Virus record (IMG/VR): IMGVR_UViG_3300050821_000522
Span: 1-49,172 of that record
Origin: a virus
Length of the DNA stretch: 49,172 nt
Direction: 5' to 3' (one strand)
A program made the translations under genes and the position numbers. A model generated the notes under the pieces. The model ran no database searches and had not been told where the DNA came from. It saw only the letters and a list, made by a program, of their open reading frames with translations. Position 1 is the first letter of the stretch. Each line of letters begins with the position of its first letter. Below, in pieces: positions 1 through 49,172 of the stretch.

Positions 1-98
1 AACTACTAGGGTTAGCAAAGATACCAGAACGAGAACCAGCACTAGAAGACTGTCCCATCGCAGACAGTTATCTATTAGACGAACGACCGTTCCCGTTC
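1..98. repeat. 98-bp direct repeat, left copy
   Basis: These bases are identical to the last 98 of the window. Two overlapping reading frames pass through the repeat and stay open when the right end is joined to position 99. This shows the copy is an overlap of a circular assembly, or a very short terminal redundancy, and not a second locus. The repeat lies inside coding sequence, which is unusual for a true packaging terminus. Confidence 0.95.
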
Positions 99-173
99 TT
101 ACCCAGGAGTCGGGAAGTCTGGTTACTGTCCCCACAGCCGCTGGCATATCAATCACTGTGGAAAGAAAATTAG
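1..173 (+). CDS. Small membrane protein overlapping the peptidase gene, C-terminal part
   Basis: This is the end of the 81-aa frame that starts at 49002 and stops with TAG at 171-173. The stretch encodes an acidic, Pro-rich soluble tail (with PEREPALEDCP and DERPFPFLPRS). It overlaps the peptidase gene in a different frame throughout. Confidence 0.6.
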   Translation, partial: LLGLAKIPEREPALEDCPIADSYLLDERPFPFLPRSREVWLLSPQPLAYQSLWKEN

Positions 174-574: not shown

Positions 575-577
575 GAC

Positions 578-703
578 ATGAACGTATCGCAGTACGTCTT
601 AGATCGTAGAGCTAACCCGGAGTTGATGGATGAGAAAGATCATCAAAGACTTGCTCAGGCAGAAGAGAAACGATTAAGAAAACGTTTGAAAAGAAAGAAA
701 TGA
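578..703 (+). CDS. 41-aa hypothetical, basic C-terminus
   Basis: ATG 578 lies four bases after the peptidase stop and is preceded by GAGGAGTAGG. The product ends in a highly basic helix (RLRKRLKRKK). Its stop codon overlaps the ATG of the next frame (ATGA), which fits a translationally coupled operon. It resembles nothing I recognise. Base composition suggests a nucleic-acid-contacting peptide. Confidence 0.55.
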   Translation: MNVSQYVLDRRANPELMDEKDHQRLAQAEEKRLRKRLKRKK

Positions 704-849
704 CTATCTCCTGGCGGGACCTATGTGCCCGAAGTTATTGAAGGAACTACGATCTGCCTTGCCACATCAAGGACCGACGGGTCTGGGCTGGGCAGGGAGC
801 GAGATCAGTAACTAAAGAGCCGGTTGCCTGTCCTCGGCCCGGAGTCTAG
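700..849 (+). pseudogene. 50-codon frame interrupted by an in-frame TGA
   Basis: ATG 700 overlaps the previous stop (ATGA). The frame reads sensibly for 13 codons, meets TGA at 739-741, then reads sensibly again to TAG 847-849. Both halves look like one small protein: WRDLCARSY before the stop, then RNYDLPCHIKDRRVWAGQG and ACPRPGV. Three Cys and one His suggest zinc binding. It is either a gene broken by a nonsense change, a readthrough gene, or two peptides. TGA is a normal stop elsewhere in this genome. The 704-891 gap holds nothing else I can support. Confidence 0.4.
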
Positions 850-891
850 AGAGGCCAGGAACTATAAGTATCGGATTTCTAGGAGATAGCA

Positions 892-1071
892 TTGTCACAT
901 AAAAGTAGAAAGCGTCGAGACCAAAGACGGAGAGCCATTGAAAGAGTTCAATGGTGGAAAGACCACCGCAAAGCAGAAGCGGACCGAGCGTTTGAAGATT
1001 GGAAATTAATTAATGAACACTTATTAGAGATTAATCGACTTGAAATGCGTACTGGACATCGAGACCAATAA
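892..1071 (+). CDS. 59-aa basic hypothetical
   Basis: Starts at TTG 892, five bases after AGGAGA, and ends with TAA at 1069-1071, overlapping the first 32 bases of the DNA polymerase gene. The N-terminus is strongly basic (KSRKRRDQRRR) and the rest is predicted helical with Trp pairs (QWWKDHRK). It is too short for family assignment. The position and overlap suggest translational coupling to the polymerase. Confidence 0.5.
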   Translation: MSHKSRKRRDQRRRAIERVQWWKDHRKAEADRAFEDWKLINEHLLEINRLEMRTGHRDQ

Positions 1072-2992
1072 ACTTTATGACCCGACAGAGATATGGGTTA
1101 TTGTCTGTAAAGATATAGATACAGACAATTATTATATATTTAGAGAGGTTACAAAGAGTGAAGAAGAGAAGCAGCGTTTCCTTACATTTGCACAGGGCAT
1201 TGACCTTTGGATTGGCCATAACATTATCGAGTTTGATTACCCTGTCCTCAGACGACTTCTGGACTTATCGGTACCTGACATCGCCCATAGAAGCATTGAT
1301 ACCCTTATTGTTAGCAGGTTGGTTAATTACACTAGAGAATACGGGCACTCTCTAGAATCATGGGGAATAGAGCTTGGTCTAGACAAAGTCTGGTTCAAGG
1401 ACTTCTCTGCCTACTCGAAAGAGATGGAGGAGTATTGTGTACGAGACGTTGATGTTTGTCATAGGTTGTATCTACGCTTTCTGGATACTATCTCTGATCC
1501 TGCTTGGCGTCCAAGTATATCGCTTGAGCAGCAATTCCAACTCATTCTTAATAGCGTACATGATCGTGGCTTTGCTTTTAATTCTACCGATGCTATGGCC
1601 TTATTGGATCAAGTAAAAGGAGAGCTAAATGCACTCGACCACGAGATACAGGAAGCCTTCCCGGACAGACTACGATTGGTCAAAGAAGTTCATCCAAAAC
1701 TTACCCGATACGGCACTCTACATAGAGGTGACTTCCGCTGGGTTAAGGGTGGTGATCTTACCGAATTCAACGGAGGGCCATTCAGTAGATGTAAGTGGGT
1801 TCCCTTCAATCCGGCTTCTCATAAGCAAGTTATTGAAGTTCTCGTTGATGCAGCATGGGCTCCCGTTGAGAAGACAGATACCCACATCCAAACCCTCCGA
1901 GAAATAAATAAGCTTAAAAGAAGTAAAGATCCAAAGAAAGTACTTGACTTAGAGAAATTATCTGCTAAACTAATTTCATTAGAGAAATATGGTTTTCGCG
2001 TTAACGAAAACAACCTCGCAACTCTCCCCGCCTCTGCCCCTCCTACTGCCCTCCTACTACATCGTAGGATCCTCCGTGAGTCCAGGCGTCGAACCCTGAC
2101 CGAATGGCTTTCTCTCCTTTCCCCAAGCGGTCGAATTCACTGTGAGTTCCAAGGGATCGGTGCCTGGACCATGAGGATGGCTCATCAGAAGCCTAACCTC
2201 GCCAACATCCCTAATGAGTTTGTCAATTCTACGGGGGCTGTCAAGTATCTAGGCAAGGAGTTACGGTCCTTATGGACTCATACTCCAGGTAGAATACTAT
2301 GGGGGGTAGATGCAGATAGTATTCAATTCAGAGTAGCTGCACATTACATTAACGACAAGAATTTAACTGAGAGAATTGTCAATGGACGAAAAGCTGATAA
2401 AACCGATACCCATTCCTTTAATCAAAGACTCCTCGGCAAGGCTTGCAAGTCTAGACAAGCGGCTAAACAATTCCTTTACTCTGCCTTTCTTGGTGCAGGC
2501 ATTGGCAAACTTAGTGAAATTCTGGACTCCACAGAAAGGGAAGCAGAAAAGGCTCTCGCTGTCCTGCTCAGAGAATATCCTGGGATTGACTACGTTAAGC
2601 GAGAAGTCGCTACAAGTGACGCTAAACAAGGATATTTTATTGGCCTCGACGGACGACGAGTTCCAATTCCAGGAGATACAATTGGAGAAAGAAAACACCT
2701 TGCACCCAGTGGATACCTCCAGTGTGGAGAAGCCATTGTCATTAAGACAGCGGCGTGCCATTGCGCACCTAAGCTCGAAGTCTTAGATAGTTTCTTAGTA
2801 GATATAGTTCATGATGAATACCAGGGCGAGTCTCCTAATAAAGAGATTGCTTTAGAAGCTTGTCAAATAGTCTCGGACTCAATCGCATGGGCAGGTGAAG
2901 AACTTAAGCTTCATTGTCCGATGAAAGGGAGCTTTTACGATGAAGACCATCAACGTTATACAATTGGTTCGTGTTGGTATTCGACGCATTAA
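1040..2992 (+). CDS. T7-like family A DNA polymerase with 3'-5' exonuclease
   Basis: This 650-aa protein starts at TTG 1040, giving MKCVLDIETN, the usual position of exonuclease motif I at the extreme N-terminus. Exo II appears as GHNIIEFDYPVL and Exo III as YCVRDVDVCH. The polymerase half shows motif A (DADSIQFRVAAHY), motif B with the O-helix (RQAAKQFLYSAFLGAGIG) and motif C (VHDEYQGE). The size is close to T7 gp5 (704 aa), and there is no 5'-nuclease domain. It replicates the phage genome with the primase-helicase at 45987. The start overlaps the small upstream gene and the 3' end overlaps the next gene by 53 bp. Confidence 0.95.
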   Translation: MKCVLDIETNKLYDPTEIWVIVCKDIDTDNYYIFREVTKSEEEKQRFLTFAQGIDLWIGHNIIEFDYPVLRRLLDLSVPDIAHRSIDTLIVSRLVNYTREYGHSLESWGIELGLDKVWFKDFSAYSKEMEEYCVRDVDVCHRLYLRFLDTISDPAWRPSISLEQQFQLILNSVHDRGFAFNSTDAMALLDQVKGELNALDHEIQEAFPDRLRLVKEVHPKLTRYGTLHRGDFRWVKGGDLTEFNGGPFSRCKWVPFNPASHKQVIEVLVDAAWAPVEKTDTHIQTLREINKLKRSKDPKKVLDLEKLSAKLISLEKYGFRVNENNLATLPASAPPTALLLHRRILRESRRRTLTEWLSLLSPSGRIHCEFQGIGAWTMRMAHQKPNLANIPNEFVNSTGAVKYLGKELRSLWTHTPGRILWGVDADSIQFRVAAHYINDKNLTERIVNGRKADKTDTHSFNQRLLGKACKSRQAAKQFLYSAFLGAGIGKLSEILDSTEREAEKALAVLLREYPGIDYVKREVATSDAKQGYFIGLDGRRVPIPGDTIGERKHLAPSGYLQCGEAIVIKTAACHCAPKLEVLDSFLVDIVHDEYQGESPNKEIALEACQIVSDSIAWAGEELKLHCPMKGSFYDEDHQRYTIGSCWYSTH

Positions 2993-3134
2993 CTGTCTTC
3001 CTAAGAAACGGTTCGAAGACATTAAGGCAGCTTCGAAGGAATGTGAACTTGCCTATTATGCTTCGGAGAAAGTACTGACAATTACCCGTTGTCCATTTTG
3101 CAACGGCTACCATTTAACCAGTAGAAGGAAGTAA
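2940..3134 (+). CDS. 64-aa protein with C-terminal zinc-knuckle motif
   Basis: ATG 2940 lies inside the end of the polymerase gene. The C-terminus reads ITRCPFCNGYHLTSRRK, a Cys-x2-Cys-x2-Tyr-His arrangement common in small phage and host nucleic-acid-binding proteins. The middle is helical. Function is unknown; close coupling to the polymerase suggests a replication accessory role. Confidence 0.65.
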   Translation: MKTINVIQLVRVGIRRINCLPKKRFEDIKAASKECELAYYASEKVLTITRCPFCNGYHLTSRRK

Positions 3135-3136
3135 GA

Positions 3137-3277
3137 ATGCTTGCAACTGACTTAACATTAGACGAAGAGACTACTATTCGGCATGTCTTGCACGATTGGG
3201 GTCTTCAAGATGCATACTTCTATGCAGATTATGATAAAGTAGAAGCATTGAAAAAGAAGTTGGAGATTGATTCATGA
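3137..3277 (+). CDS. 46-aa acidic hypothetical
   Basis: ATG 3137 follows GAAGGAAGTAAG, two bases after the previous stop. The product is acidic with an aromatic patch (DAYFYADYDK) and a Lys-rich end. Its stop overlaps the next start (ATGA). I do not recognise the family. Confidence 0.5.
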   Translation: MLATDLTLDEETTIRHVLHDWGLQDAYFYADYDKVEALKKKLEIDS

Positions 3278-3411
3278 GAATTGCAGACCAGTTGAGTGAA
3301 GACCTGTGCATTTATGGGCATGCATTCTGTACTAAGATTGATGAACCTGATCTATTTCAGATCGAACGTATTCCGCCATCTATTATTCTGGGAGGTTTCT
3401 ATTATGCCTAA
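3274..3411 (+). CDS. 45-aa hypothetical
   Basis: Starts at ATG 3274 within the ATGA overlap of the previous gene and ends at TAA 3409, overlapping the next start by eight bases. The sequence (with DLCIYGHAFC and ERIPPSIILGG) resembles no family I know. The support is the tight coupling on both sides. Confidence 0.45.
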   Translation: MRIADQLSEDLCIYGHAFCTKIDEPDLFQIERIPPSIILGGFYYA

Positions 3412-3571
3412 GTATGAAGTTGAGTTGTCCGGTTCTGTAGTTGTCGATGCTCCGTCTGAGGTCGATGCCGAAGACTTGGCCATGAACCTGATCCATGGCG
3501 ATATTTCTGTCTGGGCCAATACCGAAGCAGAGATTGAATTTGATGTTAATGCAGTTAAGGAGATTGATTAA
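3404..3571 (+). CDS. 55-aa acidic beta-rich hypothetical
   Basis: ATG 3404 with GGGAGG eight bases upstream is chosen over an earlier in-frame start at 3296, because the sequence before it belongs to the overlapping 45-aa gene. The product (MPKYEVELSGSVVVDAPSEV) is acidic and reads like the small phage proteins with the pattern of a beta strand, then an alanine-rich helix, that are often found beside SSB genes. No function assigned. Confidence 0.6.
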   Translation: MPKYEVELSGSVVVDAPSEVDAEDLAMNLIHGDISVWANTEAEIEFDVNAVKEID

Positions 3572-3576
3572 TCAGT

Positions 3577-4047
3577 ATGTCTACCCAGTCATTTAAGTTT
3601 ACAGGTAAGGTCAAGTGGTGTCGTCCAGACCAGACGAACGAGTGGGGCAAGTTCTCCACTCGTTTCTACCCTGATAATAAATCATTAGAAGAGATGAAGA
3701 AGCTTGCCATTAAGAACACATGGAGTACAGACGAAGACGGAGAATTCACTAACGTCTCTTGTCCTAAGGAAAAGGACTATAGAGGACGTAAGATAATTAA
3801 TAAGATTGTAGTCATAGGTCCAGATGGCAATGACCACTACTCTGATGTCCATGGCTTTGTCGGAGATGGATCTGATGTTGAGTTATGGATTGACTACTAC
3901 GACCACCCTATTGCAGGGAGTATGCGTCGTGGACATGCCATTAAGTGGACTGGAATGAAGATTATTAACTTAGCCCCTCCGTATACTAAAGAACAAGAAG
4001 TTAAACCAATGCCTGAGTGGGGGGAACAGGCAGTTATGGTTCCATGA
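3577..4047 (+). CDS. Probable single-stranded DNA-binding protein
   Basis: A 156-aa protein with alternating beta pattern and aromatic residues typical of an OB fold: FKFTGKVKWC at the N-terminus, then DVHGFVGDGSDVELWIDYYD, where phage SSBs carry a G-N-G-S-x-V turn, and ending in an acidic and Pro-rich segment. Size and position beside the polymerase fit an SSB. A T7 gp2.5-type acidic aromatic tail is not obvious; the end is MPEWGEQAVMVP. The assignment rests on the pattern, not on a diagnostic motif. Confidence 0.55.
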   Translation: MSTQSFKFTGKVKWCRPDQTNEWGKFSTRFYPDNKSLEEMKKLAIKNTWSTDEDGEFTNVSCPKEKDYRGRKIINKIVVIGPDGNDHYSDVHGFVGDGSDVELWIDYYDHPIAGSMRRGHAIKWTGMKIINLAPPYTKEQEVKPMPEWGEQAVMVP

Positions 4048-4112
4048 TTTGGTTAGGTCCTTTACCAGTGGAAGAAAGTAAGCGTAATGGCGAGCCTTGC
4101 CTGGACTATTAA
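4044..4112 (+). CDS. Possible 22-aa peptide
   Basis: ATG 4044 overlaps the SSB stop (ATGA) and reads 22 codons to TAA 4110. Most of the frame lies within the hairpin at 4056-4118, so the apparent frame may be incidental to RNA structure. Confidence 0.25.
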   Translation: MIWLGPLPVEESKRNGEPCLDY

Positions 4113-4118
4113 AGGACC
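4056..4118 (+). promoter_or_regulatory. Long hairpin between SSB and the next gene
   Basis: GGTCCTTTA at 4056-4064 is perfectly complementary to TAAAGGACC at 4110-4118, and the next four bases CCAG pair with CTGG at 4101-4104 across a small bulge. No T-tract follows, so it is not an ordinary terminator. It may be an mRNA-processing or stability element. Confidence 0.5.
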
Positions 4119-4145
4119 TTTCCATTAACACAGAGGGACATCGGC

Positions 4146-4493
4146 ATGATGAAAAAGCAGAAGTCCCACTTACAGGAGTTTATTATGGGCAGGAAGAATA
4201 GGTTCACAAACACCACCTTGGCCGGCGCAGATGAGATGTTCTACGCCGTGACAATGGACAATGGAAAGAGCAGCCCTGCTCTTAATGCCAAGCAAGAGGT
4301 CTTGGATTGGTTGGATGAACATTTCGTTAATACAGTGACTGATGTCAGTCAGATCACAGTCAAGAGAAAGAAGAGGAAGTCTGCCTTACTCCGAGAAGCA
4401 GAGCGAGCGTCAGAGATCGCTATCTTGGAGAGGAGACTAGAGTTCCTCAAGGAACAGCCTCCTGTCTTCAAAGAAGGATCGGAGGCCATGTAA
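4146..4493 (+). CDS. 115-aa basic helical hypothetical
   Basis: ATG 4146 has GAGGG upstream; an internal ATG at 4185 with GGAG is the alternative and gives MGRKNRFTNTTLAG. The protein has a globular N-terminal half and a basic, probably coiled-coil C-terminal half (KRKKRKSALLREAERAS). Function is unknown. It is the last coding sequence before the gene-free 4494-5475 region. Confidence 0.6.
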   Translation: MMKKQKSHLQEFIMGRKNRFTNTTLAGADEMFYAVTMDNGKSSPALNAKQEVLDWLDEHFVNTVTDVSQITVKRKKRKSALLREAERASEIAILERRLEFLKEQPPVFKEGSEAM

Positions 4494-5475
4494 TCCGGCT
4501 GAGTACCAGCCCGGCTGTTGACCGGTGATTGGGAGAGTCGACCGCGATGACCTGCTAACGCGGAGAAGACAAGGTAGCAATACCAAAGTAGGATGGAAAG
4601 GGACACTCTGATGTCTGTGGTTCCGCCACGCACTACAGTGGAAAGTCCTAGCTGAGGGCGGCCGTCTCCTTAAGTGGCCTGGTCGGAAGACTACGGCACA
4701 TCAGCGTCTCTAGTCCATATAGAGATCCAGGTAGGTTGCAAAGATTGATGACATGTCCGCTTTGTTGATGATGCGCAAATCGACAGAGAAGTAGCAAACA
4801 GCCCGTATGGCGTCCGGTTCGACTCCGGTTCGTTGAGGTAAACCCATACGAAGATCTTATAGGCGGTCCAGATTAAGGCCAAGAGGCACGATACTGGCTA
4901 GGCCTAGGATACTAACTCGATGTCGAAACCTGAGTATAACCTAAGTAGTCCCTGATCCGGGGACGTAAGTTCCGAAAGTACGAGTGCACAGTAGGTTCAA
5001 TTCCTTACTCCATGAACTGGAGACTGGCGGTGCATAGAAGGTAGTCAAAGAGAACTCCATCCTTTGGGTAGAGGCTTTGACATGACGAATAGGAACGTGG
5101 GTTGATTGCCAGTCCTGAATAGACTGGACTGAGGGTCATATTCCCTCTACATCCGAGTTCATCGACTAGAGAAAGTAGAGGCAGCTGAGTTGTCTCTGTC
5201 AGCAAGCTGTCCCGAGAGATAAAGAGGCCCCTAAAGGCTGCATGTTAAGTCCTATGCTAATCCCTGGGGAAGGGAGCATACCTGGTAGGCACATGATCCT
5301 CGTACTAATTCTACGTCAGTTCTTATCCGTCTGGTTAGAGATGCTAAACAGAATGGATTAAGGGACGAAGCTGTATCAACTATACAGAGAGGTGACCTGA
5401 CATGACTAGGAACCTTCTTCGCCCCATCAGACCACCCTAAGTTAACTTGGGGATGGGACCTTCAGAAAGGAATTC
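4494..5475 (+). ncRNA. Candidate ~980-nt structured non-coding RNA
   Basis: No credible gene exists here on either strand, although the rest of the genome is packed. The region is rich in local hairpins: GGTA-GCAA-TACC (4573-4584) and GGGAC-GTAA-GTTCC (about 4957-4972), both capped by GNRA loops; CCGCG/CGCGG near 4541-4563; TCTCTA/TAGAGA (4707-4725); CCAGTC/GACTGG (5109-5127); CTCCA/TGGAG (5008-5022); GTCAAAG/CTTTGAC (5043-5080); TCCCT/AGGGA (5261-5275); CTGTAT/ATACAG (5371-5387). A terminal nested hairpin, CCCAT outside CCCTAAG-TTAA-CTTGGGG, ends near 5457. Two hairpins copy the tRNA T-loop. Size, gene-free state and residence in a tRNA-bearing phage recall the GOLLD and ROOL classes of large RNA; homology is not shown. 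The ends are set by flanking genes. Confidence 0.65.
4804..4850 (+). ncRNA. tRNA T-arm-like domain inside the large RNA
   Basis: CCGG (4814-4817), TTCGACT, CCGG (4825-4828) copies a T-arm with the standard seven-base loop. It is enclosed by a 7-bp helix, CGTATGG (4804-4810) with CCATACG (4844-4850). No acceptor, D or anticodon arm can be built around it, so it is not a tRNA. T-loops commonly serve as tertiary contacts in large RNAs. Confidence 0.55.
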
Positions 5476-5694
5476 ATGACTTTAGAAGAACAAACTAAAC
5501 ATCTTCTTGCTACTCACAAAGGCATAGGTATGATCCCTCCTTTCTATGCAGAGACGGCTAGTGTAAAAGAAGATCAGAGCTGGCCTTATTGGATAATTAG
5601 AAATAAGTCTTGTAATTCTTTTGGATGTTTCTTTTCAAGAGTTGATGCAGAAGCTTTAGCTCCTATGTTAAATAAGCTTACCAAGGCCCAATAA
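5476..5694 (+). CDS. 72-aa hypothetical
   Basis: ATG 5476 has AAAGGAATTC upstream, just after the hairpin that closes the structured region. The product includes WPYWIIRNKSCNSFGCFFSR, a pattern suggesting a small alpha/beta domain with two Cys, and ends with a Leu-rich helix. Similar small proteins of unknown role occur in many phages. Its placement behind the structured RNA raises the possibility that the RNA is also its leader. Confidence 0.55.
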   Translation: MTLEEQTKHLLATHKGIGMIPPFYAETASVKEDQSWPYWIIRNKSCNSFGCFFSRVDAEALAPMLNKLTKAQ

Positions 5695-5709
5695 TAATGG
5701 AGAAGAACA

Positions 5710-6000
5710 ATGGGCAGGTGGCATTACGAACCCTATGATGAAGATGATGATTATCGTCCTCGTCGTAATAGACCTAGAGTAGAGATTCCTCCTGGTGTAG
5801 ATCCTATTAGAATTATGGAGTTTATGGATCGAGTCCAGAGACGTAAATCCAAAGAACCTAAGAAAGAGGAAAAGAAGAAGGAGTTAGCCAAAGAAGCCTT
5901 ATGGTATTTCCAGGCTGCATGTATTCTATATTTCCTGTCTCCGCCCATAGCTGCCTTACATCAGCTTATTGCAACTCTAACTACATCGGCACTTAAATAA
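5710..6000 (+). CDS. 96-aa basic protein with C-terminal membrane segment
   Basis: ATG 5710 follows TGGAGAAGAAC. The first half is charged (DEDDDYRPRRNRPR), the middle is Lys-rich (KSKEPKKEEKKK), and residues ~66-93 are hydrophobic (ALWYFQAACILYFLSPPIAA), consistent with a tail anchor. The next gene begins one base after its stop. Function is unknown; it may tether something to the inner membrane. Confidence 0.6.
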   Translation: MGRWHYEPYDEDDDYRPRRNRPRVEIPPGVDPIRIMEFMDRVQRRKSKEPKKEEKKKELAKEALWYFQAACILYFLSPPIAALHQLIATLTTSALK

Positions 6001-6001
6001 C

Positions 6002-6883
6002 TTGAAATCAATTACTACTCTTATAACAGATATCTACCAAGTCTTGGAGGCTAGAGATGGAAACTTCTCTCCTGAGATTGTTAGTGACTTATCCTCGGGT
6101 ATCTCTAGCCGCCTTCACGGACAGTTGGGTGAAAGACCCGAAGGGCAGAAGGCTGCTCTCAGACTGTCAGCTATGGGTCCAAAATGTCCAAAGGCTCTCT
6201 GGTACTCTATACATCACCCAGAACTTGCCGAGCCTCTACCGCCGTGGGTCCACGCTAAATTCTCGTTTGGACACATACTTGAGGCATTCGGGATAGCTCT
6301 ATGTAAAGCAGCAGGACACACAGTCACAGGAGAGCAAGATGAACTCTGGGTGGACGGTGTGGCCGGCCATAGAGACGCTGTGGTGGATGGCTGTATTGTG
6401 GATTTCAAGTCTTGTAACAGTCGTTCTTTTGAGACTATTAAACGTAAACAGATGGTTAACGATCCTTTTCTTTCTAGCTATCTGGACCAGATGGACGGAT
6501 ATCTGGTGGGCTCACTTGAAGACCCTCTTGTTACAGTAAAGGATAAGGGGTATATATTTGCCATTGATAAAACATTAGGACATATGTGCTTATATGAACA
6601 TTGCATTAGGGAGTCATCAATTAGGGAGCGCATTGGACGATCTAAGTGGATCGTTGCTCAACCTAGCCCGCCTGACTGTACTTGTGGAGTTCAGCCAGAC
6701 GGAGAAAGCGGAAATATTAGACTTGACGCAAAAGCTAGTTACTCTAACTTCAAACATTCTTGTTTCCCGCATCTTAGAACCTTCTTATATTCAGAAGGAC
6801 CTAGATACTTAACAGTAGTAAAACGGAGACCTGCCGATCATGTCCGAGAGATCGACGCCAAAGGCAACACTGTCTACCATTAA
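6002..6883 (+). CDS. Cas4/RecB-type PD-(D/E)XK exonuclease
   Basis: A 293-aa protein from TTG 6002. The core shows KCPKALWYSIHHP near residue 60, a Cys position used for the iron-sulphur cluster in Cas4-like nucleases, then GHRDAVVDG supplying the metal-binding Asp and CIVDFKSC supplying the D-x-K catalytic pair. A C-terminal Cys group (CTCG and a later C) could complete the cluster. Phage homologues degrade DNA ends in recombination and host-DNA breakdown. With endonuclease I just downstream it forms a recombination and genome-processing pair. It overlaps the next gene by 44 bp. Confidence 0.8.
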   Translation: MKSITTLITDIYQVLEARDGNFSPEIVSDLSSGISSRLHGQLGERPEGQKAALRLSAMGPKCPKALWYSIHHPELAEPLPPWVHAKFSFGHILEAFGIALCKAAGHTVTGEQDELWVDGVAGHRDAVVDGCIVDFKSCNSRSFETIKRKQMVNDPFLSSYLDQMDGYLVGSLEDPLVTVKDKGYIFAIDKTLGHMCLYEHCIRESSIRERIGRSKWIVAQPSPPDCTCGVQPDGESGNIRLDAKASYSNFKHSCFPHLRTFLYSEGPRYLTVVKRRPADHVREIDAKGNTVYH

Positions 6884-7034
6884 CGGTGCCTTTACTATTA
6901 CTGGCTCTGTAGAACAGGTCATGAAGACAGGAGAAGAGTTTGAGAAGTTCATGGAAGACTTAAGGAAAGAAGGCCTTAAGATTAAACAATTTAGGTATGA
7001 TGTAAATTTAAGTGATAAAGAAGAAGAAAACTAG
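6840..7034 (+). CDS. 64-aa hypothetical between two nucleases
   Basis: ATG 6840 lies within the end of the exonuclease gene, and the 3' end overlaps endonuclease I by 23 bp. The product reads as a beta hairpin followed by an amphipathic helix (GEEFEKFMEDLRKEGLKIKQ). Because it is wedged between two nucleases, a regulatory or partner role is possible, but nothing in the sequence proves one. Confidence 0.55.
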   Translation: MSERSTPKATLSTINGAFTITGSVEQVMKTGEEFEKFMEDLRKEGLKIKQFRYDVNLSDKEEEN

Positions 7035-7365
7035 AAATCGTTTCGAAGCTAAGATTGAAAGACAGCTTAAGAGAAGTAGAATTGTATTTAAGTACGAGAC
7101 TGAACGTATCCCTTACATTCTAGCACGGCACTATGTCCCTGATTTCATCCTTACTACACCGACGGGCAAAGTGTACATAGAGTGTAAGGGATACCTAAGA
7201 CCCGAAGATAAGTGTAAACTAATTGCTGTTAAGAAATATAACCCTCATCTAGATATCAGGATAGTATTCTATGAGTCCAGGAAGAAGTACATAGCCTGGG
7301 CTGAACGTGCAGGGTTTAGATGGTCAATAGGGATTGTCCCTAAAGATTGGTTGGTCGGGCTATGA
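7012..7365 (+). CDS. T7 endonuclease I-like Holliday junction resolvase
   Basis: A 117-aa protein from GTG 7012. It carries the endonuclease I signature: RHYVPDFIL followed by KVYIECKGYLR, the P-D-F and E-x-K-G metal-binding residues of this PD-(D/E)XK family. A basic N-terminus and an upstream Glu (YETERIPY) complete the usual active site. T7 gp3 is 149 aa, so this is a compact version. It resolves branched replication intermediates before packaging and helps degrade host DNA. Confidence 0.9.
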   Translation: MIKKKKTRNRFEAKIERQLKRSRIVFKYETERIPYILARHYVPDFILTTPTGKVYIECKGYLRPEDKCKLIAVKKYNPHLDIRIVFYESRKKYIAWAERAGFRWSIGIVPKDWLVGL

Positions 7366-7505
7366 AGTTAAAGAATTGGATTTATACACAAATGTGTGTA
7401 GCTGCTGAACAAAACGACAAGAAAAGACTTACTGAACTGTGGAAGATGAAAGAGGCACGTCCTGATCTTTATCCTGAATTAAAGGAATGGTCTAATGGAA
7501 GGTAG
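7362..7505 (+). CDS. 47-aa hypothetical
   Basis: ATG 7362 overlaps the endonuclease I stop (ATGA). The product is basic and helical with several Trp (KNWIYTQM, LTELWKMKE, LKEWSNGR). No known family. Tight coupling supports translation. Confidence 0.5.
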   Translation: MKLKNWIYTQMCVAAEQNDKKRLTELWKMKEARPDLYPELKEWSNGR

Positions 7506-7584
7506 TCATGTTGCTTATTTCTTTGCAGGAGTTATTACCTGCTTCATTGTCCTACTCTTAGTAGGTTTATATTTAGGTGTATAG
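7495..7584 (+). CDS. 29-aa single-pass membrane peptide
   Basis: ATG 7495 overlaps the previous gene by 11 bases. Almost the whole product is one membrane span (AYFFAGVITCFIVLLLVGLY) after a six-residue start. Tiny membrane peptides in phage early regions often modify host functions, but no role can be inferred here. Confidence 0.5.
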   Translation: MEGSHVAYFFAGVITCFIVLLLVGLYLGV

Positions 7585-7586
7585 TT

Positions 7587-7724
7587 ATGATTAAACATCC
7601 TCAGACTAGAGCAGAGAGATTAAGGTTAAAGAAATTACATGAGAAGAAACACAGGCCAGAAGACGCAGCCCCCTCGGAAGGAGCGCGACCAGATGAAGCC
7701 GATCAGGAAGATCTCAGTAGTTAA
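7587..7724 (+). CDS. 45-aa charged hypothetical
   Basis: ATG 7587 is two bases after the previous stop. A basic N-terminal helix (ERLRLKKLHEKKHRP) is followed by an acidic tail (DEADQEDLSS). The 3' end overlaps the next gene by 32 bp. Confidence 0.45.
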   Translation: MIKHPQTRAERLRLKKLHEKKHRPEDAAPSEGARPDEADQEDLSS

Positions 7725-7923
7725 AGAAGCATTCCCTACTTTCGTCGATAGAGAGACTTTAGCTGATTTACTTCATGTCCATTGGTCTTCTATGAAGGTC
7801 ATAGGAGATGATGATGAAGTAGAGATAATTGAGAACCTTCCTCAAATGATCAATGTCAAGATAACCATTAAGAAAGGTAAAGATAGCCGGTCTAGGTATC
7901 GAGTGTTGAATGACGGAACGTGA
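7693..7923 (+). CDS. 76-aa hypothetical
   Basis: ATG 7693 with GGAG upstream is preferred to an in-frame ATG at 7639, because the extra N-terminal residues coincide with the 45-aa gene in another frame. The product (MKPIRKISVVKEAFPTF, then DDDEVEIIENLP) is a mixed alpha/beta domain with a basic end. Function is unknown. Confidence 0.55.
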   Translation: MKPIRKISVVKEAFPTFVDRETLADLLHVHWSSMKVIGDDDEVEIIENLPQMINVKITIKKGKDSRSRYRVLNDGT

Positions 7924-8170
7924 AAGAGTCTATAAGAAAGGCTCCCCAGGAAGTGAGTACGACTCATACCACGGGAAGCCAGAGCAGATTAAGCGTAGAG
8001 CTGAGCGTAATGCAGCTAGACGTAAAGCAGTTAAGTCTGGTAGAGTGCGTCCAGGAGACGGTAAGGAGGTCGACCATAGCGGTAGTCACCGTAAAGGCTC
8101 CCTAGCTAGGGTACGTACTCATATTGTTCCTAGAGTAGTTAATAGACGTAGGCAACCTAAGAGGTCTTAA
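7910..8170 (+). CDS. 86-aa basic HNH-like DNA-binding protein
   Basis: ATG 7910 overlaps the preceding gene by 14 bp. The protein is very basic, with QIKRRAERNAARRK, then PGDGKEVDHSGSH and a C-terminal RVVNRRRQPKR. This order (Arg-rich helix, G-D-G-K-x-V-D-H, then an N-R-R-R end) is typical of a small phage family with an HNH-like beta-beta-alpha turn. Only a partial HNH core is visible, so it may bind DNA without cutting. Confidence 0.6.
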   Translation: MTERERVYKKGSPGSEYDSYHGKPEQIKRRAERNAARRKAVKSGRVRPGDGKEVDHSGSHRKGSLARVRTHIVPRVVNRRRQPKRS

Positions 8171-11015: not shown

Positions 11016-13129
11016 TGTCCCTTAAAACCTACGCCGCCTTGATACGAAGCTCTGATAGCTCCTAGCATCTTCCAAATCATACTTCCTTCTTCAGAAGGAT
11101 AACTCTCTTTGAGATGCTGATAAAGAAGTACGGATGGGTCTACAGTACCTTTAGGATCATGTTGATCGACTACTACAAGTCTATGAAGATTGGCTGCAAC
11201 CTGATCAAATTGCATCTTAGCTGATCTAGATGTGCCGGGTCCTTGCGCCTTACTTGAAAAGGTCCCCTCTTTATTATTATAATAGACATCCAATCCTTCC
11301 GGACGAGACTCCCGGGTCTTTGGATTAAATGGTACTTGAGCCGCTGTTAAGTACTCATGCGGCATCATTACCGCTACATTAGTTGCTACAGAGTTTCTGA
11401 GATGTTCATAGAGTTCTGGCTTATCTTTAGCCATCTTCTCTACCATCTTAACATTTGCATCTGAGTACATCTGATCGTAGACAAACTGTCTACCTTTAGC
11501 TGTACCGCCCCTATAGTTACGAATCTTCTCGTCGTTTATAAAGGCCTGTAAATACTTAGCTCCATCAGGATCACCAAATACATTATTAATTAATGCTTCT
11601 CTAGCTGCAGGGGCTATTGCATCTTTACCTGTCTTTCCAAGAAGTGGAATCATATCCGCCATAGCTCCATGGAAAGCTGGCGAAACATTCTTATGTAGAG
11701 CCTCCTCTTGCATTTCTGAGAAAGGTCTACCACCTAATGTAGGAGGAGTAGTAGCATCAATCATTTGTTTAGACAGATAAGGAACTAAAGCAGATTCTAC
11801 TTTATTAGCTGCTTGTGTAACTTCTTGATACAAAGTAGGATCTGTTTTTCTAAGAGTTTCTCTACGTTGTATGGTAGATCCGTACTGTTTATCTGTCATA
11901 AGAACATTCAAGTCATCTTCTGCTCTGCCTTTATTCATCTCAAAATGACGCTTAGCAGCAGCATAGTTTCCTTCAGTTAAAGCATTCCCATAAGGATCCC
12001 AGAACATCTTACGTTCTGTCTCTACTTGTTGCTCTATTTGTTTATCAGTTATTTGAGAACGTACGTCTTCATCTATTGCACTGGTTGTCGGCCCCCCAGA
12101 AGACTTAGTATTTAAAGCATCCCTAATTTGTTTAGTTCTTGCGACCATGGCTGCTTCGCCTTGAGATTTAAACCAAGAACCAACTGCAGTCGCTTCCTCA
12201 TCTCCCATATCTGGAATCTTCTCTCCGCGTTCTATAGCCTGAGCATCTGCATTCCACTTAGGATTATGCAAATCAATAGACATAGCTAACCCATGCCCAG
12301 CTGCATTCCACCAATGCTTTGAAGAAGAAGACGCATACTGCTGAAATGCTTTATCCTCTACTTCTTTACTAACTTGCATCTGGTCTCTTTGTGCTCTAGA
12401 ATTAGCTGCATATTCTTGAGTATCGTGGTCAGCAGCCATATTCTCATTTAGCCACTTTAGAGCCATAGGACCATTCAAGTCTGGGTTCTTCTTATAGGCA
12501 GCGTAGATATTATCAAACCCATGATATTTAAGACCATTAGTCATAAGGTGAGTTTCTAAAGAATCTCTCTTAGCTTGCTTACCGGCTATGAAGCTATCAA
12601 TGTCTCCAATAACAGAACGAATATATTGATTAGCTGAGTCACGTCCAGTTACCCGTTTAAACTCTTCATCTACATATTGCCTAAACCCAGGATACTTACC
12701 TCGTATTTCTTTAGCCAATGCAGTAAGACGAGCATCATAATCAGTCTGAGACAACTTACCATTCTGTCTAGCACTATCTAATGTCCCTAAGGTTCTAGGT
12801 AAACCTTTGACATCATGAGGAGCATCTCTGCCTAAAGGATCCGGAGTATCTCGTCCTTGAAGAGCTTGGTCTGCAGAATGTAATTGACCAATATATGCAT
12901 CACGCACAGGATCTACAGCAGCATATATACTATTCTGAATACCCTTCTCGTAAGCTGCAGTAATACCTTGTACGCCTTCTCGCACTGCAGACCCACCTGC
13001 TTGTAAGGCACTCCCAATCGCCTTGCCTTTTATTTCACCGGAGATATCAGGCTTAGGCTCAGAGGTAGGTCTAGACCAAAAATATGGTTGGTCAGGTTGA
13101 CCTTGTACGGGAGTAGCTATGTCTGCCAT
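11012..13129 (-). CDS. 705-aa internal virion / ejection protein
   Basis: A large helical, polar protein with a coiled-coil tendency (EVEDKAFQQYASSSSKHWW) and no enzymatic motif I can identify. It sits between the giant structural protein and the zincin protein, after the tail nozzle, which is where podoviruses encode internal core proteins ejected with DNA. The start overlaps the previous stop (TAATG). Confidence 0.65.
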   Translation of the reverse strand: MADIATPVQGQPDQPYFWSRPTSEPKPDISGEIKGKAIGSALQAGGSAVREGVQGITAAYEKGIQNSIYAAVDPVRDAYIGQLHSADQALQGRDTPDPLGRDAPHDVKGLPRTLGTLDSARQNGKLSQTDYDARLTALAKEIRGKYPGFRQYVDEEFKRVTGRDSANQYIRSVIGDIDSFIAGKQAKRDSLETHLMTNGLKYHGFDNIYAAYKKNPDLNGPMALKWLNENMAADHDTQEYAANSRAQRDQMQVSKEVEDKAFQQYASSSSKHWWNAAGHGLAMSIDLHNPKWNADAQAIERGEKIPDMGDEEATAVGSWFKSQGEAAMVARTKQIRDALNTKSSGGPTTSAIDEDVRSQITDKQIEQQVETERKMFWDPYGNALTEGNYAAAKRHFEMNKGRAEDDLNVLMTDKQYGSTIQRRETLRKTDPTLYQEVTQAANKVESALVPYLSKQMIDATTPPTLGGRPFSEMQEEALHKNVSPAFHGAMADMIPLLGKTGKDAIAPAAREALINNVFGDPDGAKYLQAFINDEKIRNYRGGTAKGRQFVYDQMYSDANVKMVEKMAKDKPELYEHLRNSVATNVAVMMPHEYLTAAQVPFNPKTRESRPEGLDVYYNNKEGTFSSKAQGPGTSRSAKMQFDQVAANLHRLVVVDQHDPKGTVDPSVLLYQHLKESYPSEEGSMIWKMLGAIRASYQGGVGFKGQ

Positions 13130-36239: not shown

Positions 36240-36692
36240 TTATTTACTCCCTAATGGCATAGGGATTAATCGTTCTCTTAGTGTATTAATTTCTGTCTGT
36301 AGTTCTTTCATACGATCTGCTATTGTCACAGAAGAATTAATTTCTTTAGCTAAATCATCATGTTCTTTCTTAAGTGAGTCTATTTCCTTCTCTAGAGAAT
36401 GTATATGTTCTATTGAGCCAGCTCTTATCTGCTGTTCTGAATGAACTCCATCCATTTCTTTAGTTAGAATATCTAATCTATGATCTAAGTCTTGTTGATA
36501 TTGATTATGTTCACGAAGAGTAAGATAATTAGCAAATGTACTTTTAAGTTCTGAGATAGAAGATCTAGGATCAGCTAATTGCCAGAATCCTGCAAACATT
36601 GTCAATACAACGACCATAGTACTGATTATAGTCGGTAGAAGACTACTATACCCATTCCCATTTCCGTTCATTGGTTTCTTATTTACCGCCAC
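36240..36692 (-). CDS. 150-aa membrane-anchored coiled-coil protein
   Basis: A single span (LLPTIISTMVVVLTMFAGFW, residues ~18-40) is followed by about 100 residues of charged helix (EKEIDSLKKEHDDLAKEINS). This looks like an inner-membrane spanin (Rz-like) or a virion protein of similar shape. There is no nested lipoprotein frame that I can see, so spanin identity is unproven. Confidence 0.55.
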   Translation of the reverse strand: MAVNKKPMNGNGNGYSSLLPTIISTMVVVLTMFAGFWQLADPRSSISELKSTFANYLTLREHNQYQQDLDHRLDILTKEMDGVHSEQQIRAGSIEHIHSLEKEIDSLKKEHDDLAKEINSSVTIADRMKELQTEINTLRERLIPMPLGSK

Positions 36693-42038: not shown

Positions 42039-42232
42039 TCATTGAATGTGCTTGTGGTCGATTAGAGACTCGGCACGATACCTCTAGTTATCGCATTAAA
42101 GGATTGTGTTCGAGATGTAGGGCCGTTAAGTTAGCCCGTATTCAATTCTTATCATCTAGGTACCCTACTGTATTTGCGCCTATTTTAAGGCATGTAGGTA
42201 AAGGAAAGCTAGCACGCGTGGCGAAACGGTAA
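42035..42232 (+). CDS. 65-aa zinc-ribbon protein
   Basis: ATG 42035 overlaps the previous stop (ATGA). ECACGR and LCSRCRAVK form a zinc ribbon, followed by a basic helical end (HVGKGKLARVAKR). The last 21 bases overlap the tRNA-Leu gene on the same strand. Confidence 0.6.
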   Translation: MIIECACGRLETRHDTSSYRIKGLCSRCRAVKLARIQFLSSRYPTVFAPILRHVGKGKLARVAKR

Positions 42233-42290
42233 ACGCGAGGGTCTTAAAAACCCTTGGGAAACCTTGTGGGTTCAAGTCCCACCGTGTGCA
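42212..42290 (+). tRNA. tRNA-Leu (anticodon UAA)
   Basis: The acceptor is GCACGCG with CGTGTGC, the anticodon stem AGGGT/ACCCT encloses CTTAAAA (anticodon TAA), the variable arm is short, and the T-arm is GTGGG-TTCAAGT-CCCAC. CCA is not encoded. It reads UUA, common in this genome and rare in GC-rich hosts. It overlaps the end of the upstream coding sequence. Confidence 0.9.
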
Positions 42291-42291
42291 C

Positions 42292-42366
42292 GGGCTCATA
42301 GCTCAATGGTAGAGCAAGCGGCATATAACCGTTAGGTTCCGGGTTCGAGTCCTGGTGGGCCTACCA
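42292..42366 (+). tRNA. tRNA-Ile (anticodon UAU), unusual base 33
   Basis: The acceptor is GGGCTCA with TGGGCCT, D-arm GCTC/GAGC, anticodon stem AGCGG/CCGTT, loop CATATAA, T-arm CCGGG-TTCGAGT-CCTGG, and CCA is encoded. The anticodon reads TAT (Ile, AUA). Position 33 is A where nearly all tRNAs have U. It begins two bases after tRNA-Leu. Confidence 0.85.
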
Positions 42367-46006: not shown

Positions 46007-47519
46007 ACAACATATTCCCTGTCCTAACTGTCCATCCTCAGATGCTTATTGTCTGTACGACGATGGACACGGTTATTGCTATTCATGTTTGACTTATACT
46101 AGAGGAGATCAAGTGGTTGATGAACGAGAATACACTTATGAATTTTACGGACGACGAGGCATTACGGCAGAGTGTTTTAGGCATTATGGCTGCCAGACTA
46201 AAGTTAATAGAGAAGGAAAACCTATCTCCGTTGGGTATCGTTATCCAAACGGGTCGGTTAAAATTAGAGATTTAGAAGAGAAGAAATTCCATTGGTTCGG
46301 TACTCCAGAGCCAGGTCTCTACGGCACAGATATTCATGCCTCTGGATCTAACAAATACTGTGTCGTTACTGAAGGAGAGGAAGATGCGCACAGCCTTTGG
46401 CAAGTTCTTAAGATTCCAGCTTGTAGCGTTCAATCTAGCGCTACTGCTAAGCGCGACTGTGTTGCTAGCTTCGCATGGCTATCTGGGTTCGACCGGGTCT
46501 ACCTATGCTTCGACAATGACGGACCAGGTCGAGAAGCTCTGGCAAGCGTCGCGAGACTGTTCGACTACAATAAAGTCTACGTGGTCCGACTCTCTCGGAA
46601 AGACGCTAACGAGCATCTCCAGCACGGAGAAGTAAACGAACTAGTGAACGTCTGGACTAACGCCAAGCGTTATACTCCAGACAACATCATCAGTACGTTC
46701 ACGGAGTTCGAGGATGCTCTCTCCAAGGACACCGCTAAAGGTATTCCATATCCGTGGCCCACCTTGTCTGAGATGACGGGTGGTATAAGACAATATGAGA
46801 CTGTCTTAGTCACTGCCCCAGAAGGAGTAGGCAAGACAGAGTGGATGAAGGCAGTCGAGTATCACCTCTTAAAGGAGACAGATGACAATGTCGGAGCCAT
46901 CTACATCGAAGAGCCCAAAGAGTGGCATCTCAGAAGCCTTGTCGGAATTGAACAAGGGAAACCCGTACATCTTCCAGACCAAGCCATTCCAGTACCTGAG
47001 CAGGTTGATACCCTCAGAAAGCTTCTCAAGAGAGATGAGCGTCTTTTTCTGTACTCTCACTTTGGGTCAGTTGATCCTGACACTCTCTTGGACACTATTA
47101 GGTTTCTGGTGTCTGCCTGTCTTTGTCGGTATATCCTGTTGGACCATATCACCATGGCTGTTACGGGCCTGGCCGGGGAAGACGAGAGAAGAGCCTTAGA
47201 CTATCTAATGTCTAGGCTAGAGATGATGGTCAAGGAACTAGGCTTTGCTCTAATCATAGTGAGCCATGTCAATGACTTTGGACAAACTCGTGGAAGTCGT
47301 GCTCCTGGTAAACTTGCTGATATCCGCATTGATCTTTCTAGAGATGTACTCAGTGCTGATCCCATTATACAGAGCACGATCACCCAAACGATTAGTAAAC
47401 CTTGTAGGTTTACAGGCCGTTCTGGCTTTGCTGGGAGCATTACCTTTAATAGTAATACTAGGAAGTTTACTGAAGTAGCCAATGATAATGCTGAGTGGAA
47501 AGGTACTGCATGTGCCTAG
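45987..47519 (+). CDS. T7 gp4-like primase-helicase
   Basis: 510 aa from GTG 45987. An N-terminal zinc ribbon (PCPNC and GYCYSC), a TOPRIM primase core with VVTEGEEDAHSLW and LCFDNDGPGREA, then a RecA-like helicase with Walker A APEGVGKTEW, Walker B YILLDHI, and IIVSHVND containing the conserved His. It synthesises primers and unwinds DNA ahead of the polymerase at 1040. The length is slightly below T7 gp4 (566 aa). It overlaps both neighbours. Confidence 0.92.
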   Translation: MSSKIIEQHIPCPNCPSSDAYCLYDDGHGYCYSCLTYTRGDQVVDEREYTYEFYGRRGITAECFRHYGCQTKVNREGKPISVGYRYPNGSVKIRDLEEKKFHWFGTPEPGLYGTDIHASGSNKYCVVTEGEEDAHSLWQVLKIPACSVQSSATAKRDCVASFAWLSGFDRVYLCFDNDGPGREALASVARLFDYNKVYVVRLSRKDANEHLQHGEVNELVNVWTNAKRYTPDNIISTFTEFEDALSKDTAKGIPYPWPTLSEMTGGIRQYETVLVTAPEGVGKTEWMKAVEYHLLKETDDNVGAIYIEEPKEWHLRSLVGIEQGKPVHLPDQAIPVPEQVDTLRKLLKRDERLFLYSHFGSVDPDTLLDTIRFLVSACLCRYILLDHITMAVTGLAGEDERRALDYLMSRLEMMVKELGFALIIVSHVNDFGQTRGSRAPGKLADIRIDLSRDVLSADPIIQSTITQTISKPCRFTGRSGFAGSITFNSNTRKFTEVANDNAEWKGTACA

Positions 47520-48169
47520 CCAAATGGAACCTTAAGTTCTTTGAGTCAGGGGAATGGCAAGTACTAGAGGAGAGACTCCGTGACCGCTTGGAACAGGGTA
47601 TTGTGGATAATCCTGACCGTGGAGATCTATTTGCTGCGTTGGATGCTGTTAGTCCTGAAAGGGTTAATGTGGCTATCCTTGGACAGGACCCGTATCCTCA
47701 GCATGATAATGCAACTGGCATTGCCTTTAGCATCCCGGTGGGCTCATCTAAGTTTCCTCCGACGCTCCTTAACATCCTTAAAGAATACTCAGAAGACTTA
47801 GGATATCCTTACCCTTCTTGCGGAAGCCTTTTACCGTGGTGCAAGCAGGGCGTACTGCTGTGGAATGCACTACCCACCTGTCAGGCAGGGCTTCCAGCAT
47901 CCCACAGGAATTGGCACGAGTGGTACTTCTTAACTCAGGAGATCATGGAGAAGCTCAATGAACAGAATACTCTGGTGGTTAGTCTTGGGTCTTTTGCTAA
48001 GTCTTTTTGTGGCGATGTTCGCCCCGATCATCTCCTCTCGTTCTCACACCCATCTCCACTCGCTGCTCTCAAAGGAAACAGGCCCTTCTCTGGTTCCCGC
48101 CTATTCTCCACCATCAATTCCAAATTAGTTAAGTTAGGTAAAGAAGCTATTGATTGGAGGCTGGAATGA
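47510..48169 (+). CDS. Family 1 uracil-DNA glycosylase
   Basis: 219 aa from ATG 47510, preceded by GGAAAGG; GTG 47495 in frame is an alternative. It shows the water-activating loop ILGQDPYPQ, the uracil-binding VLLWNALPT strand and the minor-groove loop SHPSPLAAL, all typical of family 1 enzymes. It removes uracil from DNA. Coupling with the primase-helicase by overlap implies repair at the fork. The genome therefore should not be uracil-substituted. Confidence 0.92.
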   Translation: MCLAKWNLKFFESGEWQVLEERLRDRLEQGIVDNPDRGDLFAALDAVSPERVNVAILGQDPYPQHDNATGIAFSIPVGSSKFPPTLLNILKEYSEDLGYPYPSCGSLLPWCKQGVLLWNALPTCQAGLPASHRNWHEWYFLTQEIMEKLNEQNTLVVSLGSFAKSFCGDVRPDHLLSFSHPSPLAALKGNRPFSGSRLFSTINSKLVKLGKEAIDWRLE

Positions 48170-48387: not shown

Positions 48388-48526
48388 GAAGGATGGTAGG
48401 AGTATTGCTCAAATAGCCCAGGCATTAGGAAAGAGTAAGAATGAAGTAAATTGCTCTTGGAATAATTATGTCAGAAGACGTACCTGGTCTTGGGAGGAAA
48501 TAAAGAGGACTGTTCATGGAACCTAG
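48335..48526 (+). CDS. 63-aa HTH / SANT-like DNA-binding protein
   Basis: ATG 48335 with GGGAG upstream. RTWTPEKIWILFQGKKDGRS followed by IAQIAQALGKSKNEV reads as a Trp-capped three-helix domain with a helix-turn-helix, as in SANT/Myb or GcrA-like proteins. A possible transcription regulator of this phage. Confidence 0.6.
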   Translation: MPKRTWTPEKIWILFQGKKDGRSIAQIAQALGKSKNEVNCSWNNYVRRRTWSWEEIKRTVHGT

Positions 48527-48776
48527 ATTAGCAGTTAACAACGACTTCGGTCCTGGTCCTCCTATAGGAAACAAGGACTGGATCACTCCTTTACCCGTAG
48601 GCACCAGATTCTTGTGTATGGATAATAAGACTAAGAACATTCTGGAATTAGAAGTATTAGCCAGGAGTCCTGGCGATTATGTGAAGTTGATTGATCACGG
48701 AGATAGCAGTGTTTGTTGGCACATACCTGAAGCATTCTGTTTTCAGAAGACTTTCGCAGATATTTTAGAGGATTAA
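48516..48776 (+). CDS. 86-aa hypothetical
   Basis: ATG 48516 overlaps the previous gene by 11 bp. A beta-rich small domain (LPVGTRFLCMDNKTKNILEL) followed by WHIPEAFCF. Function unknown. Confidence 0.55.
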   Translation: MEPRLAVNNDFGPGPPIGNKDWITPLPVGTRFLCMDNKTKNILELEVLARSPGDYVKLIDHGDSSVCWHIPEAFCFQKTFADILED

Positions 48777-48935
48777 ATGAGTAACGTAGTTGATTATAAT
48801 ACCTTTAGTACTTTGTCTCTGTTAAGAGATTCCATTAAATGGTTTAAAGGACACAACAAAGAAGGTCTATTTGACTCTGCTATTAAAGTAGAAGAAGGGG
48901 CTTACCAAGAGTATCTTCGTTCAGCCAGACAATGA
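48777..48935 (+). CDS. 52-aa hypothetical
   Basis: ATG 48777 directly follows the previous TAA. The product is helical and polar (SLLRDSIKWFKGHNKEGLFD). Its end lies just before the peptidase gene. Confidence 0.5.
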   Translation: MSNVVDYNTFSTLSLLRDSIKWFKGHNKEGLFDSAIKVEEGAYQEYLRSARQ

Positions 48936-48946
48936 GGGAGGTTGGC

Positions 48947-49172
48947 ATGTTGAAGGGTATCTGCGTCGGGATACTACTTCTATTAACAATGGGGGAAGTG
49001 AATGCGCATAACAGACCACGAGTGGAAGCTCCTAGCAATAGTTGGTCTACTGGCTTCTCTGGCTATGTACAACCAACTACTAGGGTTAGCAAAGATACCA
49101 GAACGAGAACCAGCACTAGAAGACTGTCCCATCGCAGACAGTTATCTATTAGACGAACGACCGTTCCCGTTC
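48947..49172 (+). CDS. Secreted M15-type peptidase, N-terminal part (continues at position 1)
   Basis: The gene starts at ATG 48947, six bases after a GGGAGG ribosome site, and continues across the circular join to the TAA ending at 574, for 233 aa in all. The N-terminus looks like a signal peptide: Lys at residue 3, a run of Ile/Leu/Val (GICVGILLLL), then VNA as a plausible signal peptidase I site near residue 20. An Arg/Ser/Thr-rich linker follows, and its odd composition is probably forced by the second frame overlapping it (49002 to 173). The catalytic domain is at the left end of the window. A role in degrading host peptidoglycan from the periplasmic side is inferred. Confidence 0.75.
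   Translation, partial: MLKGICVGILLLLTMGEVNAHNRPRVEAPSNSWSTGFSGYVQPTTRVSKDTRTRTSTRRLSHRRQLSIRRTTVPV
49002..49172 (+). CDS. Small membrane protein overlapping the peptidase gene, N-terminal part
   Basis: ATG 49002 follows GGGGGAAGTG and opens an 82-codon frame ending at 173 after the join. The product begins MRITDHEWK and has one hydrophobic segment (LLAIVGLLASLAMYNQLLGL), then an acidic, Pro-rich tail. It lies entirely inside the peptidase gene in another frame. The clean membrane segment, the ribosome site and the low-complexity composition of the other frame in the shared region suggest this frame is really translated. The architecture recalls nested Rz/Rz1 spanin genes, but I see no lipobox, so a lysis role is only a guess. 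Confidence 0.6.
   Translation, partial: MRITDHEWKLLAIVGLLASLAMYNQLLGLAKIPEREPALEDCPIADSYLLDERPFPF
49075..49172. repeat. 98-bp direct repeat, right copy
   Basis: Exact copy of positions 1-98. Removing one copy gives a 49,074-bp circle in which the 233-aa peptidase gene and the 81-aa membrane gene are both intact and in frame. Confidence 0.95.

Follow-up and report, generated by a model that had tools for sequence, protein, structure and literature searches.

Two reading frames at the circular join

A soil phage appears to code an exported cell-wall enzyme and a small membrane protein from one stretch of DNA. The window, by which we mean the whole stretch analysed (49,172 bases), begins and ends with the same sequence. 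Because its first 98 bases are repeated exactly as its last 98 (positions 49075-49172), genes may be read round a circle of 49,074 bp. When the genome is re-read in this way, two overlapping plus-strand genes are open across the join, as the original prediction had claimed. The outer gene runs from 48947 to 574 (702 nt; 233 amino acids plus a stop), with a signal-peptide-like N-terminus and the start of a linker in its first part (48947-49172), and the rest of the linker, an M15-type catalytic domain, a C-terminal tail and the stop in its second (1-574). The nested gene runs from 49002 to 173 in the +1 frame relative to the outer one (246 nt; 81 amino acids plus a stop), where positions 49002-49172 encode an N-terminal transmembrane (TM) helix and positions 1-173 encode a Pro-rich, Cys-containing tail, predicted to be disordered, that ends in KEN before the stop. 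All 246 bp of the nested gene lie inside the outer gene. The pair also occurs in the interior of contigs from other viruses (L001, L002 with the identical L003, L004 and L005), and the finding is therefore no artefact of joined ends.

The outer start at 48947 is preceded by 5 nt, and these by the Shine-Dalgarno sequence GGGAGG (48936-48941, plus strand; duplex of -13.3 kcal/mol), and the nested ATG is preceded by the Shine-Dalgarno-like stretch GGGGGAAG (48991-48998, plus strand; -8.4 kcal/mol). A duplex of -8 or better accompanies 9.4% of the 774 ATGs on the plus strand of the window, and the stretch before the nested start is not better than those of synonymous shuffles (P 0.24). The same holds for most of the pairs considered below, the best being that of L035 (P 0.047).

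The pair is located among replication genes on the plus strand, in a slot between genes for a primase-helicase and a uracil-DNA glycosylase (47495-48169; PF03167, 4.7e-12) on the upstream side and the gene for DNA polymerase A (1040-2992; PF00476, 5.9e-30) on the downstream side. Two further conserved plus-strand genes, coding for 86 (48516-48776) and 51 (48780-48935) amino acids, precede it. The structural genes and a GH108 endolysin (endolysin PHROG match of 1.6e-38) are encoded on the minus strand. The polymerase is most similar to those of Roseobacter phages CRP-4 and CRP-5 (recorded as Zobellviridae; 37.6-39.3%), marine isolates in which the primase and polymerase genes are separated by no more than one small gene, and the portal protein to that of ICP2-group Vibrio phages (46.6%). 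Window positions 1-8000 had no nucleotide match among phage records.

The outer enzyme and the nested membrane protein

The outer protein begins with MLKGICVGILLLLTMGEVNA-H, continues with the basic, Arg/Ser/Thr-rich linker that had been anticipated for this frame, and ends in a compact domain. We take MLKGICVGILLLLTMGEVNA to be a plausible Sec signal peptide, with its cleavage placed by the -3/-1 rule of thumb, and the nested ATG at 49002 lies over the last two codons of this probably cleaved segment (48947-49006). A rule-based filter for such N-termini, which is loose and was applied to starts chosen to fit, was passed by 8/8 enzymes encoded in the slot and 42/42 encoded elsewhere. The proposed signal peptide is matched by a signal-peptide-like N-terminus in the outer protein.

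With residues numbered along window:2-571, the putative zinc ligands are H93 of an SxHxxGxxxD motif (278-280), D100 (299-301) and H138 (413-415), and the likely catalytic residue is D135 of a DxxH motif (404-406). All four, like S91 and G96, are identical across 20/20 aligned rows. The spacing of the two motifs matches that of M15 enzymes, where our motif assignment follows Ply500 and the T5 endolysin. An AlphaFold2 model based on 20 sequences has a pLDDT above 90 over most of its core. The first 20 rows returned by Foldseek consist of VanY, Ply500 and Hedgehog (best E of 6.4e-3), and the best solved matches found with VIA-align are VanY, LdcB, Hedgehog and Ply500 (best Z of 7.7 over 101 residues). 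Although a Z below 8 is weak when considered alone, nearly all rows are LAS-type and the motif residues are invariant, which together point to an M15-type zinc peptidase.

Sequence-family searches gave little to add. Pfam returned no family for the peptidase of the window, PHROGs returned nothing convincing, a profile search of PDB sequences produced no matches, and only one of the 20 members has a Pfam M15 match (PF13539, M15_4, E 0.0023). On the strength of its residues and modelled fold, we regard the outer domain as an M15/LAS zinc peptidase similar to VanY and Ply500, with a predicted activity of that type, and the outer protein is very probably an exported M15-type enzyme, as had been proposed. 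We rejected a peptidase start downstream of the overlap, at GTG 158, because the confident core of the model begins upstream of that codon. Therefore, the overlap survives the objection that the enzyme might begin beyond it.

The original prediction of a nested membrane-protein gene is borne out by a single predicted TM helix in the 81-amino-acid frame. In the model of the L004 homolog, one helix spans residues 5-29 and the remaining tail is of low confidence, such that the nested product is predicted to consist of one TM helix and a disordered tail. Identity to the window protein is 43% for L001, 77% for L002 and 78% for L004. Stops in this frame among relatives had been named as evidence against the gene, but L001, L002 and L004 have none, and both frames are open and in register in these three loci and the window. 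L005 also has a TM open reading frame (ORF) of matching frame and position, though at only 18% identity, and it is the sole exception among the eight in-slot nested proteins to the presence of a Cys after the TM helix (7/8). PHROGs contained no family for the nested proteins of the window, L002, L005 and L035 and only weak ones for L075 and L121, and Pfam matches were likewise weak. A nested-protein profile recovered no further homologs among the collected slot loci, and in the viral contig collection it recovered only the contigs of L001, L002, L003 and L004.

Selection on the nested frame and its recurrence before polA

A second frame under selection should leave its mark on the outer gene, where the third codon position is position 2 of the nested gene. 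Among the closest trio (the window, L002 and L004), outer third positions differ in 12/77 codons inside the overlap for window/L002, 14/80 for window/L004 and 17/77 for L002/L004, versus 55/127, 45/119 and 47/119 after it (Fisher P of 3.2e-5, 0.0025 and 0.013, respectively). Upstream of the nested start, the 18 codons of the signal peptide show 11, 9 and 9 third-position changes for the same pairs, and therefore the suppression begins with the nested gene. Outer dS is 0.21-0.28 inside the overlap versus 1.05-1.13 after it, while outer dN is about as high inside (0.18-0.27) as after (0.14-0.20). Recombination was rejected as the cause of the low dS, given that change at positions 1 and 2 between the window and L002 is not reduced in the overlap (29/154 versus 44/254).

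We also compared the nested proteins with a null in which the outer proteins were fixed and synonymous codons were drawn at the post-overlap rate (5000 draws). Identical nested residues number 57/75 for window/L002, 61/79 for window/L004 and 52/75 for L002/L004, compared with null means of 36.3, 33.1 and 33.2, and 0/5000 draws reached the observed value for any of these pairs. Under the same null, pairs with L001 give P values of 0.012-0.037, and these pairs show no suppression of change at the outer third position (odds ratio of 1.55-1.80); window/L005 gives 0.37. Thus, conservation of the nested frame exceeds chance for the window, L002 and L004, is weaker with L001 and is not significant for L005 alone. 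The suspected selection on the second frame is upheld in the closest relatives, where the nested frame is under purifying selection.

The same layout recurs with another enzyme. A PolA-based scan, in which 80 loci were kept of 358 confirmed relatives, and a search with the L035/L075 enzyme that added L121, revealed three slots (L035, L075 and L121) whose exported-looking enzyme differs and carries PSAWCGW/RPSEWCGW and HH motifs. We tentatively call this enzyme CHAP-like: when Pfam was applied to the L035 and L075 proteins, only the latter matched, to CHAP with an E of 0.016 that is below the model cut-off, and tblastn with the L035 enzyme found no match in phage records. All three genes contain a +1 ORF of 66-75 amino acids that begins with ATG 55-73 nt after the outer ATG and encodes an N-terminal TM helix. 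Judging from these sequences, the nested layout is kept where the enzyme is CHAP-like rather than M15.

A TM ORF nested in this position is present in 8/8 in-slot enzymes versus 0/15 out-of-slot M15 and 0/27 out-of-slot CHAP-like homologs, counts that come from one criterion for all enzymes with duplicate loci counted once, but with thresholds fixed after the in-slot cases were known and with eight in-slot phages that are related and so are not independent trials. The 42 out-of-slot homologs also have signal-peptide-like N-termini and often a His-rich linker. This contrast supports all the nested frames together. Combined with the selection signature, it makes dual coding well supported, and we hold it to be real with little hesitation. 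Some out-of-slot M15 relatives are encoded near endolysins (a GH108 enzyme in L025 and an endolysin-type enzyme in L018), which fits a wall-directed role.

Small TM proteins are also encoded in this slot apart from enzymes. Of 49 anchored slot loci, 19 have a small TM ORF by a filter whose thresholds were set after earlier results and which narrowly missed the nested L034; five of these are nested (two with identical sequence) and 14 are not, and the same filter applied to the minus strand finds 2/49. The 14 loci suggest that the membrane protein might do without the enzyme. Separate single-TM ORFs of 36-48 amino acids occur in L040, L042, L044, L049, L052, L062 and L073, some with paired cysteines. 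Among those of L040, L044, L052, L062 and L073, only the last has a PHROG match, which is weak and to a family of unknown function. L051 (3503-3844) and L058 (3583-3921) encode similar-looking, exported-looking proteins of about 113 amino acids with His-rich linkers, right after the helicase gene, and the L051 protein matches no Pfam or PHROG family. These two slot proteins gave no nested TM ORF, and they are uncounted above since their passing of the signal-peptide filter is uncertain.

Possible roles of the pair

We believe that the best explanation (probability of roughly 0.6) is that the dual-coded exported peptidase and the nested TM protein form an envelope-directed pair. Frame 0 would yield an M15/LAS-fold zinc peptidase with a signal-peptide-like N-terminus, and the +1 frame, starting over the cleavage site, would yield a protein of about 80 amino acids with one N-terminal TM helix. 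Sec would export the peptidase to the periplasm, where it might trim or cut the stem peptides of peptidoglycan. Ribosomes might start anew at the internal ATG or be coupled to translation of the outer gene, and the small protein would be inserted into the inner membrane, where its tail, which contains a Cys, would probably face the periplasm. Since the enzyme needs no holin, it would otherwise act at once, and the membrane protein might tether, restrain or time it. The chances that the two products cooperate in this manner seem to us evenly balanced. Both genes belong to the replication cluster and are separated from the GH108 endolysin, a placement suggesting that they act earlier than the main lysis cassette or together with it, and do not replace it.

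The small membrane protein could either have its own job in the slot or work with the enzyme where one is present. Our modest preference is for a functional pair, since both of the unrelated kinds of enzyme have the nested start tied to the place where the signal peptide would be cleaved. More speculatively, exported wall enzymes before polA in this clade of soil podophages might always carry a +1 inner-membrane partner that starts at the cleavage site. The locus would then be one for a holin-independent enzyme and a membrane-bound regulator, in which the enzyme is exchangeable (M15 or CHAP-like) and the partner is kept or re-made. We consider this broader proposal tentative and somewhat doubtful. 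The pair offers a testable case of how a phage might control a wall enzyme whose export needs no holin. Gene callers routinely overlook small nested membrane genes, and this case combines a selection signature, the slot contrast and an exchange of the outer enzyme. It also supplies a search rule for more cases, namely to look for genes with a signal peptide and a linker whose +1 frame holds a TM ORF positioned at the cleavage site.

Both genes might instead be real but independent, with the nested TM protein serving in host takeover or superinfection exclusion after overprinting in a tolerant linker. This reading, which we judge unlikely but worth serious consideration, draws on the 14 non-nested slot loci, on patterns such as G-I-x-Y-I-x-x-H-V that some separate slot TM ORFs share by eye, and on the replication-cluster location. 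A phage precedent also exists: in the available part of the report on Pseudomonas phage Fc02, the olg1 and olg2 genes have starts 25 nt apart, and one product excludes other phages (PMC9936078). Like our pair, they use two same-strand frames in one phage transcript, but that portion of the report describes no exported enzyme (PMC9936078). Against this reading, an inspection of the separate and nested TM proteins did not establish homology between them, and the nested gene occupies one and the same position in both of the unrelated kinds of enzyme, which suggests a link.

Alternatively, the two genes could form a lysis pair in which the nested protein acts on the inner membrane by damaging it or by signalling there, in the manner of a single-gene lysis (sgl) protein or a single-TM holin, and the peptidase is an auxiliary lysin. 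The ssRNA phages that use sgl proteins are not known to carry an endolysin. Their sgl ORFs, as described in the accessible portion of PMC7693330, are small TM genes with a Shine-Dalgarno sequence, often in +1 and fully inside the replicase gene. The likeness extends to a small TM ORF with a Shine-Dalgarno-like stretch fully inside an enzyme gene, whereas the present phage, a dsDNA podophage, encodes a GH108 endolysin of its own and has an outer enzyme that is itself directed at the envelope. The sgl precedent and the out-of-slot M15 homologs near endolysins in L025 and L018 favour this reading. However, the pair is located between the glycosylase and polA, whereas the other gene block holds the GH108 endolysin along with the TM genes next to it, and on balance we find a lysis pair rather improbable.

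Far less probable is an untranslated nested frame that is open and hydrophobic only through the composition of the peptidase linker. It is true that His/Arg/Ser/Thr linkers by themselves make the +1 frame hydrophobic, and that the probability of an open frame under synonymous shuffling is 0.04-0.19 for a single sequence (open and TM: 0.15 for L075 and 0.002-0.03 for the other seven). Likewise, where the nested frame has motifs within the region of the catalytic domain, the outer frame partly dictates them. Nevertheless, third-position change is suppressed in the overlap only, nested identity is in excess, and 8/8 stands against 0/42 even though many of the 42 have His-rich linkers. An embedded-type two-component spanin with rearranged roles is scarcely credible, because its +1 nested layout, the TM helix with a Cys in the tail (7/8) and a helical-looking tail in L121 (by eye) are countered by an enzyme as the outer protein, by the absence of a lipobox on inspection of all eight outer proteins, and by a window whose lipobox pattern scan has one match, at 12884-13003, such that no lipoprotein ORF is near the pair.

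The dual-coded, envelope-directed pair that we prefer resembles several known systems in part. In lambda Rz/Rz1, the outer gene encodes the inner-membrane i-spanin and the inner gene an outer-membrane lipoprotein, according to the available text of PMC6139136. The original comparison to Rz/Rz1 therefore holds for architecture, a small envelope-protein gene wholly within another in +1, but fails for spanin membership: here an exported M15 or CHAP-like enzyme lies outside and a TM protein lacking a lipobox inside, among replication genes and not beside the GH108 endolysin. An enzyme as the outer partner is likewise correct for this locus but not unprecedented, given the sgl ORFs in +1 inside the replicase gene (PMC7693330, as far as its accessible text extends). 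M15 phage endolysins such as Ply500, and L-Ala-D-Glu or D,D peptidases, share the fold and zinc motif but differ in that our enzyme has a signal-peptide-like N-terminus, a long basic linker, a nested gene and a replication-cluster location. Thus, small membrane genes nested in +1 are already known as embedded spanins and ssRNA-phage lysis genes (PMC6139136 and PMC7693330, from the portions available), and what differs here is that the outer partner is an exported wall enzyme, that the nested start is placed at the cleavage site and that the arrangement persists when the enzyme changes. Within the literature available to us, much of it in part, we recognized no case of an exported phage wall enzyme whose gene contains, in another frame, a gene for a membrane protein.

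Several other elements were noted in these genomes. In the minus-strand block of the window, positions 36240-36692 encode a TM protein with coiled-coil-like character that is a possible i-spanin candidate, with weak coiled-coil matches only and an E of 0.094 to an Rz-like spanin PHROG. In L012 (about 5957-6328) and L075 (about 5804-6067), inserts of about 372 and 264 nt, respectively, split the DNA polymerase A gene at different sites. Rfam gave no intron match for either insert, and their open frame carries what we take to be an HNH/endonuclease VII-like motif. Finally, Rfam identifies two adjacent tRNA genes in the window, at 42212-42290 and 42292-42363.
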